This document shows, piece by piece, positions 19,114-25,325 of a stretch of DNA of 64,000 nucleotides. A program made the position numbers and the translations under genes. Source of the DNA: Microcoleus sp. FACHB-672 (GTDB taxonomy: Bacteria > Cyanobacteriota > Cyanobacteriia > Cyanobacteriales > Oscillatoriaceae); assembly GCF_014695725.1 (NCBI RefSeq), contig NZ_JACJOU010000007.1, positions 1-64,000 on the forward strand, written 5' to 3'. The notes under the pieces are model-generated. The model ran no database searches, was not told where the DNA came from, and was given only the letters and a program-made list of their open reading frames with translations. How positions within the stretch are numbered: position 1 is the stretch's first letter; each line of letters opens with the position of its first letter.

Positions 19114-19773
19114 CTAGGCAGTGAGCGTCTGAGTTGCCAGCACAGCACGAGCGCGAACTACCAATTCTGCATCTGCTTGCGCCATTTGCTGCAACTGCGC
19201 CAAAAGTTGAGAAAACCAAGCGGGACGATCTGCCGGCACTGCACTCCCCAACCCTTGCAATCCCACGATGCCGGCATAGCGCACAACCCATTCTGGATCT
19301 TGACAAACTTTGCTTAATGTATTGTAAGTCCGCTCTTGATCGTCCCGAACCAGCTCACTTGATAACCCAACCCACTGTAGATTGCCCAACCCTCTAGCCG
19401 CCGCGCGGCGCACGCTCAAGGCAAAATCAGTTTCAGCAGCCGAGATCAGTAAATCGATGCCACGGGGATCACCGATGCCGGCTAATGCGCGAACCGCCCA
19501 AGCTCTCGCACCGTAGTTATAGCTATCAAGCTGATCTAAAATAGCCTGAACTGCCGGCTCACCGAGTAAAATTAGCCCATCCACCGCCGCCACTGCCGCA
19601 CCGGGGTTGTTGTAGCGTAAAACCTGAATCAAACTCGGAATCGCTGCCGGTGAGCGAACAGCCGCCAGCGCCTTCACTGCGTTTAACAAGCCATCAGCAG
19701 AATCCGCCTCATCAACGGCTTGAATCAATTTTTGAATGCTTTCATCCTTGGTCATAATTGCATCGCTAAACAT
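19114..19773 (-). CDS. cpcF: Phycocyanobilin lyase subunit CpcF
   Basis: A HEAT-repeat protein of about 219 residues, partner of CpcE in the lyase that attaches phycocyanobilin to Cys84 of phycocyanin alpha. Repeats include AIPSLIQVLRYNNPGAAVAA, ARAWAVRALAGIGDPRGI and LSVRRAAARGLGNLQW. The ATG at 19773 was chosen because AAGAGG sits just before it; ATGs at 19797 and 19755 are alternatives. It follows cpcE after about 160 bases in the usual order. Confidence 0.88.
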   Translation of the reverse strand: MFSDAIMTKDESIQKLIQAVDEADSADGLLNAVKALAAVRSPAAIPSLIQVLRYNNPGAAVAAVDGLILLGEPAVQAILDQLDSYNYGARAWAVRALAGIGDPRGIDLLISAAETDFALSVRRAAARGLGNLQWVGLSSELVRDDQERTYNTLSKVCQDPEWVVRYAGIVGLQGLGSAVPADRPAWFSQLLAQLQQMAQADAELVVRARAVLATQTLTA

Positions 19774-19934
19774 TAAACCTCTTGCAAAAACCTCCAAACG
19801 TCAAACTCTATGGCACATTAACTATTAACCCATCTGTGTCCATCTGTGGTTAAAAATCAAAACCTAAGACTTTGCAAGAAGCCTGAAGTACAGATTATCA
19901 ATAATTTTTATAACTCAAGATTGCCGGCATATCA

Positions 19935-20774
19935 TCACAAAAGCGAATCCATCACCGTCATAACCTGAATCGCATTATCAGACAGCGAAGGGGGTTGTGT
20001 CGGGTTACTCCCTAGCTGATGTTCTAGAATGCCTTTAAGCGCAATCAACTTAAGACTATTTTCTGCCAAAGTTTCAGCAATCGCCTCGGCTGCCGGCAAA
20101 TAACCAATCGCCCCTAGATCCATCAAAGCCGACCGGCGCAACTGTAACTCATCGCCGTGTAAAGCTTGAACCAGGCGTTCTGCATAAATCGATTGGCCTG
20201 TGAGCTGGTACATCGCTCGTGCTGCGGAGTATTGCACCCGCTTAACCGGATGTTCCAGGAACGGCTGAATCAGGGAAATCGCCTCTGTAGCGTGGAGGGT
20301 TCCTAACGCTTCGATGACTGAATTGTAAGGTTGGGCGAGGTGGGGTTTTCCCGGAACAAGCACAGCCGCTTCCACACCGCCGGCTAGCATTTGCATCAAC
20401 ACCGGCACACTGGCAGCAGCATTGAGCATTTCCAGAGATTGCGCTGCAGCTTCTCGAAGGTAGTAGTCTGAACTCTCTAAACACCAAATCAGCGCCGGCA
20501 CTGAACGCTGGTCTCCCAGTTTGCCCAGTGCCCGCGCTGCATTGCGTCTCAGGGGATATCCCCCATCGTCTGTACGGTCAGATTCATCTTCCAAAGCCGC
20601 CAGCAAAGCTTCAACTGCCGCCGGTTCCCGAATTCTGAACCTGCCAAGCCACCAAGCTGCATAGTAGCGCAGACCCAGGTCATCACCCCGCAGATTTGCG
20701 ATTGCTTGCTCTACGGTTAAAGATTCGCCACCATTTTCTGGTGCGGGTGGTGCCGGTTCAAAATAATCCTGCAT
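19935..20774 (-). CDS. cpcE: Phycocyanobilin lyase subunit CpcE
   Basis: 279 residues of HEAT/PBS-lyase repeats: LGLRYYAAWWLGRFRI, YPLRRNAARALGKLGDQRSV, YYLREAAAQSLEML and VKRVQYSAARAMYQLTG. Together with CpcF it forms the heterodimeric lyase that loads phycocyanobilin onto the alpha subunit. Length is normal. It starts 26 bases after the cpcD stop, consistent with one cpcBACDEF transcript. Confidence 0.93.
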   Translation of the reverse strand: MQDYFEPAPPAPENGGESLTVEQAIANLRGDDLGLRYYAAWWLGRFRIREPAAVEALLAALEDESDRTDDGGYPLRRNAARALGKLGDQRSVPALIWCLESSDYYLREAAAQSLEMLNAAASVPVLMQMLAGGVEAAVLVPGKPHLAQPYNSVIEALGTLHATEAISLIQPFLEHPVKRVQYSAARAMYQLTGQSIYAERLVQALHGDELQLRRSALMDLGAIGYLPAAEAIAETLAENSLKLIALKGILEHQLGSNPTQPPSLSDNAIQVMTVMDSLL

Positions 20775-20800: not shown

Positions 20801-21166
20801 TTAGCTATCGTGCTCCGATTTGCCTTCACCTTCGTGGTGATGCTCGGAAGCAGCGTCATGATGATGCTCCGATGCACCCTCATGGTGATGCTCCGATGCA
20901 GCTTTCCTGCTCTTCTCAAATTCAGCATTACCTTCAGGGGTCATCGGGTAAATGTTGACTATTTTGCCACCCATGCGAAGGATGCGCTGCATTTCTTCAT
21001 TCATCCGGTTGTAAGGCACTGTGATAAACACACTGCCACTTTGGCGAATGGGGTAATTTGTTCTGTCACTTTCTTCGCTTTGAGCTAAACCAGTGACTTC
21101 GTACCGAAAGAGCCGGCTACCAGAAGAGCTGCTTGCCGCTCTCCCATAAGCTAATTGACCAAGCAT
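20801..21166 (-). CDS. cpcD: Phycobilisome rod-capping linker CpcD with a His-rich tail
   Basis: 121 residues. Residues 1-77 are a normal CpcD: RLFRYEVTGLAQSEESD, GSVFITVPYNRMNEEMQRIL and GGKIVNIYPMTPEG. CpcD caps the core-distal end of phycocyanin rods. Typical CpcD ends near residue 80, but this one continues with a linker (AEFEKSRK) and three copies of an 8-residue unit, AASEHHHE, GASEHHHD and AASEHHHE, then GEGKSEHDS. The tail adds ten histidines and many acids, a composition that could bind Ni, Zn or Cu; that role is inference. The stop is normal and cpcE follows at 26 bases. Confidence 0.9.
   Translation of the reverse strand: MLGQLAYGRAASSSSGSRLFRYEVTGLAQSEESDRTNYPIRQSGSVFITVPYNRMNEEMQRILRMGGKIVNIYPMTPEGNAEFEKSRKAASEHHHEGASEHHHDAASEHHHEGEGKSEHDS
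20831..20902 (-). repeat. Three 24-base tandem repeats encoding the His-rich tail
   Basis: Units at 20831-20854, 20855-20878 and 20879-20902 each encode (A/G)ASEHHH(E/D). They differ at several mostly silent positions (CAC/CAT, TCG/TCC), so the array is not brand new. Confidence 0.9.
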
Positions 21167-21247: not shown

Positions 21248-22114
21248 TTAGGCTGGCGTAATGCTGGCAATTTTACCGCCCTGACGCTGAATTTGCTGCA
21301 GTTTGTTCGATAACTGCTCGTAAGGCACGATAAAGCTAGTGCTGCTGCGACGCACGCTAGGATAGCCGGGATTGCGAACGCCGGTTACTTCAATCCGGTA
21401 AACTTTACCCGTTTGACCAAACCCTAAAGAGCCACCCAAACTGGTAGTGGGAGTGGAATCTTGAGATGTGCGATATGCCCAGCCTTCAGAACCACCGGAA
21501 GGAGCGACAATGGCGGATGAGCGATTTTGACCGAGTTCGCGAGCCAGACGGGAGTTATTGCCTTCCACCTGAGAGCGATCACTGTTGGCATAACCGCGAT
21601 ACAGCCGGAACATCCGGGTGAAGCCTACGGTTTTTTGACTCCGTTGGGTTTCAAAACCACGATAGTAAGGCACGATATTTTCGCCAAAGCTCTCTTGATA
21701 CTCTGGAGAATCGATGTAAGAATCGATTTCGGCATCAAACCCTTGGGTTTCGTAGATGTCTAGGTGGAAAATCACCTCAGACTCATCATAGGGAGCGCGA
21801 CCCAACAAGTGTTTATAGTTCAGTTCAATGACGCGCGTCTGGAAATTGTTGTAAAGAAACTTCGATTTGTAAAGCTCCGATTTTGCAACACAGCGCACGA
21901 ATTCTCGCACGGTGATGCTGCCATTTTTCAAAAGGGATTCTGCACTGGTGAGTCGTTCTGACTTCATCAGATAGTCGTTGCCTAAAACCTGCCGGTAAAC
22001 GGCACGAATCACGCCCTCAACATCTTCCAGGCTCCAATCTCTCCGCAATTCAACTGGGGATGCTTCGCTAAAAGCTGAGGTTCCCAAGCGGGATGCTGCT
22101 GCTGTAATAGCCAT
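21248..22114 (-). CDS. cpcC: Phycocyanin rod linker CpcC
   Basis: A 288-residue rod linker. The N-terminal PBS linker domain (about residues 20-180) shows [38 protein letters not shown] and [20 protein letters not shown]. The C-terminal CpcD-like domain (about 230-288) shows YRIEVTGV and [20 protein letters not shown]. It links phycocyanin hexamers and tunes energy transfer in the rod. It follows cpcA after 253 bases, which contain a compound hairpin. Only one rod-linker gene is present in this operon. Confidence 0.95.
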
Positions 22115-22367: not shown

Positions 22368-22856
22368 TTAGCTCAGGGCGTTGATGGCGTAGTCGATGTA
22401 GGTGTTAGCTTCGGTGGCGGCTTGTCCGCTCAGACCGTGATTGCTCTTGATGTGCTTGAGAGCTTCGATGTACCAGCTGGGGGACAGTTCAAAGGTGGTG
22501 TTGATTTCATCTAAACCAGCAATCAGGAACTCATCCATTGGGCCGGTGCCACCAGCAACTAAGCAGTAGGTGACCATACGCAGGTAGTAACCGATGTCGC
22601 GAGAACACTTGTCTTTACCGCGCTGATCGGCTGCGTACTGATTGCCCTGCATTTGGTTGGTGTAGGGGAACTTGTTGTACACCGCTTGGGCTGCACCATT
22701 GATCAGGGTTTGAGCATTGCCGGTCAAAGCACGAGCGGCTTCCATGCTAGCAGCTGCGCGGCGGTAGCGCCCGTCAACGGCTTGCAATTCGGTGTTGCTG
22801 AGGAAACGGCCTTGGGTATCGGCGGTTGCAATTGCTTCAGTAATGGGGGTTTTCAT
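22368..22856 (-). CDS. cpcA: C-phycocyanin alpha subunit
   Basis: 162 residues, the exact family length. Chromophore Cys84 lies in [20 protein letters not shown], and the protein ends [10 protein letters not shown] as usual. With CpcB it forms (alpha-beta)6 hexamers, the main antenna pigment-protein of phycobilisome rods. It follows cpcB by 78 bases. Confidence 0.98.

Positions 22857-22934: not shown

Positions 22935-25325
<2,391 letters not shown>

Follow-up and report, generated by a model that had tools for sequence, protein, structure and literature searches.

A three-unit histidine-rich tail on the rod-capping linker CpcD of Microcoleus sp. FACHB-672

The cpcD gene of Microcoleus sp. FACHB-672 continues past its rod-capping domain into a repeat tail that is rich in histidine. 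Does this tail bind metal, does it respond to pH, or is it a nearly neutral extension of a phycobilisome linker? The gene lies in the window analysed here, a stretch of 64,000 nucleotides of contig NZ_JACJOU010000007.1. The features that bear on the question are collected in Table 1.

Table 1. Features of the cpc cluster and of the CpcD tail in the window
Feature	Position	Strand	Basis
cpcD, rod-capping linker, 121 aa including the His-rich tail	20801..21166	-	translation, profile matches
CpcD domain, residues 17-74	20945..21118	-	Pfam PF01383 full-length match, 90 bits
cpcC rod linker, PBS_linker_poly and CpcD domain	21248..22114	-	domain matches
cpcA, phycocyanin alpha	22368..22856	-	NCBIfam TIGR01338 above cut-off
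cpcB, phycocyanin beta	22935..23453	-	NCBIfam TIGR01339 above cut-off
probable cpcE, HEAT-type phycocyanin lyase subunit	19935..20774	-	HEAT_PBS/HEAT_2; name inferred from canonical order
probable cpcF	19114..19797	-	HEAT_2/HEAT_PBS; name inferred from canonical order
tail unit 1, AASEHHHE	20879..20902	-	unit motif, TRF
tail unit 2, GASEHHHD	20855..20878	-	unit motif, TRF
tail unit 3, AASEHHHE	20831..20854	-	unit motif, TRF
tail end GEGKSEHDS and stop	20801..20830	-	translation

The minus-strand translation from 21166 to 20801 gives 121 residues with zero internal stops and the C-terminus ...SRKAASEHHHEGASEHHHDAASEHHHEGEGKSEHDS. The Pfam profile PF01383 is matched from end to end (profile 1-55 of 55, 90 bits), and the NCBIfam model rod_cap_CpcD scores 131 bits against a cut-off of 80. 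Residues 1-76 exhibit 76% identity to the best CpcD outside the genus. The gene is located within a canonical cpcB-A-C-D-E-F cluster, behind cpcC and ahead of cpcE and cpcF, and cpcE begins 26 bp after it. The complete PF01383 domain, the score above the equivalog cut-off, the place in the cpc cluster and the known CpcD fold are those of a rod-capping linker. The tailed protein is an ordinary CpcD with an extended C-terminus.

After residue 88 the chain consists of three 8-residue units, (A/G)ASEHHH(E/D), followed by GEGKSEHDS. TRF reports a 24-bp tandem array at 20838-20902 with 2.7 copies and 85% matches, and the unit motif has three matches in the window where shuffles give 0.00 expected. 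The tail holds 10 His and 9 acidic residues per 33. The runner-up 33-residue stretch among all window frames of at least 90 aa has 6 His and lies antisense to cpcD; His makes up 1.7% of the residues in the long ORFs of the window. The initial annotation had described a complete CpcD with a triplicate tail of ten His and many acids, and translation, profiles, TRF and the unit motif all confirm it. A pattern search found the spaced motif EHHH(E/D)xxxEHHH nowhere else in the Microcoleus sp. FACHB-672 genome. A mobile origin of the 24-bp unit was rejected, since the motif has no second site there.

The tail is shared within the genus. Species were compared with one genome per species, which gives three species-level genomes in the genus, and the same three units with the terminal GEGKSEHDS are present in 3/3 of them. 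The CpcD of the two other species is 98% and 92% identical to the present one over all 121 residues; in the 92% species (G389) several of the differences fall in residues 5-14. A metagenome-assembled genome, Microcoleus vaginatus WJT46-NPBG5 (contig JAHHHM010000017.1), has a tail identical to that of G389. In all nine units of the three species the His, Glu and Ser positions are kept, apart from one E/D swap. The tail is absent from the CpcD of 5/5 other family genomes, which belong to three genera and in which the C-terminus follows soon after the domain. Either the ancestor of the genus acquired the tail or the rest of the family lost it, as this distribution suggests, and the number of units has since remained constant at three. 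The view that the tail is not a very recent slip, earlier drawn from silent differences among the units, holds on better evidence than those differences, because the tail and its unit number are common to three species.

Tails of other CpcD proteins were surveyed in 185 distinct stand-alone sequences, taken from 80 named loci and from whole-genome samples. The number of residues beyond position 76 has a median of 8 and ranges from 0 to 57, with many unrelated hydrophilic sequences, and at least 30 such residues are present in 22/185. The earlier statement that known CpcD proteins end near residue 80 thus describes the typical case and fails for these 22. There is zero His after residue 76 in 152 of the 185 proteins and three or more in nine; the highest count belongs to the three CpcDs of this genus, with ten each. 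The search for His repeats among CpcD homologues, which had been proposed as a check, therefore finds them to be rare, with separate repeats in other lineages.

Second in His count is genus g9 of family f7, which we suspect to be Microcoleus in the strict sense. Its CpcD carries at the same site an (SSHE) tail of 1 to 6 copies by species, for instance SSHESSHESSHESSHESSHESSHESSGDHQ, encoded by the near-identical codons TCA TCC CAT GAA/GAG. These CpcDs (L009, L138, L139, L147, L159 and L030) offer a natural copy-number series for slippage versus selection. The CpcD L196, from a genome suspected to be Nostoc-like, has the tail HSEHSHESQSGEH, and that of Laspinema has QETHEGEGE. The differences in unit length and sequence between the tails make them look like products of separate origins, arising more than once through the growth of short repeats. 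Shared descent with the (SSHE)n tails is unsupported, as the units are unlike in length and sequence and a His repeat is lacking in all three other genera of the family to which Microcoleus sp. FACHB-672 belongs. There is good support for regarding the CpcD C-terminus as a permissive attachment point on which His-rich repeats grew more than once.

Several other extensions were observed. The CpcD of L146 (G262, genus g35) has a tail with a duplicated KPLTSEPE / QPLTSEPE, copied from the domain end SIQPLTSEP, and is apparently at an early stage of repeat growth. In Chroococcidiopsis-like and Chroococcus-like genomes (L016, L020, L051, L063 and L068), cpcD occurs as a neighbouring pair, and one gene of the pair encodes a tail of the AKTEAATANQNLEAEGKSKATGAQ type, which is conserved across genera; L059, L065 and L078 have tails related to it. 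Outside the window, the Microcoleus sp. FACHB-672 genome encodes a further CpcD-domain protein of about 347 aa (L004; G000:C21:166207-166509, minus strand; PF01383 45 bits). In this protein some 280 residues of acidic repeats (DEPAAQHEE.PEID) come after the domain, together with a Lys-rich end, which is another long C-terminal extension.

No linker of the rod lies further out than CpcD (PMC9205905). The CpcL-phycobilisomes of Synechocystis have the CpcD domain of FNR at the distal end, where the Pfam00427 domain of CpcC2 holds it; in this solved structure the rod-cap CpcD domain docks on a member of the cpcC family (Pfam00427) (PMC10322944). The FNR domains after the CpcD domain are unresolved owing to a long flexible linker (PMC10322944), so that in a close relative the chain behind the domain can leave the rod. 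Shortening of this linker alters function in Synechococcus 7002 (PMC9319322). PetH shares the binding site of CpcD via its own CpcD domain (PMC10322944, PMC9319322).

The PDB chains that best match the present CpcD in Foldseek, 8hfq_m, 7sc8_BN and 7veb_Y (probability 1.00), represent either CpcD at the rod tip or the FNR CpcD domain. AlphaFold predicts an ordered domain, a possible helix at residues 77-92, and pLDDT below 50 for residues 94-104 and 107-120. An exposed and disordered tail is well supported by this model and, as regards exposure, by the structures of relatives, because CpcD sits at the outer tip of the rod and a flexible, exposed linker follows the PetH domain. The initial annotation had placed the tail at the core-distal tip of every rod. 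The tip is expected from the cryo-EM literature on CpcD, but "every" goes too far, since PetH can also cap rods. The genome encodes one stand-alone CpcD and PetH; rods capped by CpcD would therefore bear the tail and rods capped by PetH would not.

The company of the motif bears on metal binding. EHHH(E/D)xxxEHHH occurs in 18/391 genomes of the order, and in three of these it is the tailed CpcD of this genus. The 15 other genomes have it in 13 CobW/COG0523-type GTPases and 2 LarC-type nickel-insertion proteins, three of them identified by Pfam and the others by reading their sequences against those three. The reversed control pattern has zero matches in the 391 genomes. Seeing that the motif is otherwise confined to metal-handling proteins in these genomes, metal binding by the tail is plausible on composition and motif company. 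His loops of the EHHHEHGHEHHHE type were noted in the LarC-type nickel-insertion proteins of two genomes of family f11 (L246, L247).

The His stretch of COG0523 proteins is defined as HxHxHxH with x = 0-4 (PMC2770081). The CpcD tail fails this rule, with gaps of 5, 5 and 7 between its His clusters. No metal gene was identified near cpcD within the annotated part of the window, where the genes next to cpcD that have family matches encode phycobiliproteins, lyases and a Dabb-domain protein. Membership among the metallochaperones was rejected on the HxHxHxH rule and this neighbourhood. A role of the tail as stand-in for a missing His-rich CobW was likewise rejected, since two CobW-type proteins are encoded in the genome and their His runs are much denser (14 and 19 His per 33 residues). 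Of the earlier suggestion that the tail is suited to metal capture, the motif company speaks in favour and the failed His-stretch rule against. A literature search returned no paper joining "CpcD" and "histidine-rich", nothing on C-terminal extensions of CpcD or on this tail, and, among the papers it covered, no reported metal-binding role for rod-tip linkers.

The most likely working description, which we hold tentatively on composition, motif company and the structures of relatives, is that the tail, exposed at the rod tip, binds metal weakly and reversibly; a nearly neutral repeat tail ranks only slightly lower. Duplication of the 24-bp unit would let the CpcD C-terminus grow into a disordered tail of His, Glu and Ser. 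With the CpcD domain plugging the outer hexamer of the rod, the tail would lie free in the cytosol at the tip, as with the PetH linker. Weak, reversible binding of transition metals (Zn, Ni, Cu or similar) may then occur at the HHH-plus-acid clusters. Given the great abundance of phycobilisomes, tails on the antenna could provide a low-affinity surface for metal buffering or metal bridging. The broader proposal, that several lineages independently made the rod tip metal-binding via His-rich CpcD tails and that the antenna doubles as a metal buffer or a metal-bridged scaffold, appears improbable.

It is also quite possible that the tail is a nearly neutral, slippage-born extension of low complexity, on a solvent-facing C-terminus that tolerates almost any hydrophilic sequence, with His incidental. 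The wide spread of tail lengths and unrelated hydrophilic sequences in the survey fits such tolerance, and the (SSHE) tails show what slippage would produce, a copy number that varies from species to species and codons that are nearly identical. In the present tail, a hand count over the nine unit copies gives 5 synonymous versus 3 non-synonymous changes, or 4 versus 4 if a mixed site is taken as non-synonymous. P ranges from 0.009 to 0.05 for 5/8 and from 0.05 to 0.18 for 4/8, according to the transition bias that is assumed, and between-species dN/dS in the tail has too few sites to decide. Units 2 and 3 of G389 match at 22/24 bases, which indicates that they were homogenised, and homogenisation alone can preserve sequence without selection. 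Selection acting on the repeat is weakly supported by these counts. The silent differences had been read as a sign of maintenance; some synonymous excess does exist, yet it is weak (5 versus 3, P about 0.01-0.05), as a neutral tail would have it. What a neutral tail explains less well is the constancy of unit number and of all His positions in three species whose N-terminal segment diverged (92% identity overall), and the two or more origins of His-rich repeats at this site although His is rare.

A third explanation takes the tail as a contact surface dependent on pH or salt, in which His protonation near pH 6-7 would tune phycobilisome packing, contact between rod and membrane, or competition with PetH for the tip. 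The density of His and acids would give a strong change in net charge over physiological pH, and PetH binds the same site in a genome with a single stand-alone CpcD. However, neither a conserved binding partner nor a docking motif can be recognised for the tail, which is predicted to be disordered, and we consider this explanation unlikely. A sequencing or assembly artefact, foreseen as a possible refutation, or an untranslated tail is highly improbable, as the same tail with silent differences recurs in the assemblies of two other species and the frame stays open up to the stop, with cpcE 26 bp on.

Few protein complexes of cyanobacteria are as abundant as phycobilisomes, and a metal role at the rod tip would matter for this reason. 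A native His tag at the rod tip makes a possible role in metal handling directly testable, and it offers a route to the isolation of intact native phycobilisomes by IMAC. Recurrent His-repeat tails at one site also present a small and countable case of convergent evolution by repeat growth.

Compared with known CpcD (PF01383; NCBIfam NF058509), the present protein is alike in its full-length domain and its place in cpcBACDEF, and differs in the extra 33-residue His/Glu/Ser repeat tail. The (SSHE)n CpcD of g9 likewise has tandem His/Ser/Glu repeats at this site behind the domain, but its unit is of 4 residues with 1 His and its copy number changes, whereas the tail here has 8-residue units, constantly three. 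PetH (FNR-L) also combines a CpcD domain at the rod tip with a flexible exposed segment; however, it runs on into catalytic domains, and its linker in this genome (L002) is not His-rich. With the CobW/COG0523 and LarC proteins of the order the tail shares the EHHH(E/D)xxxEHHH arrangement, with acids around the His clusters. The His stretches of such chaperones (CobW/COG0523, LarC, HypB and UreE type) are much denser and are attached to a GTPase or metal-insertion domain, whereas the tail here is carried by a structural linker of the antenna.
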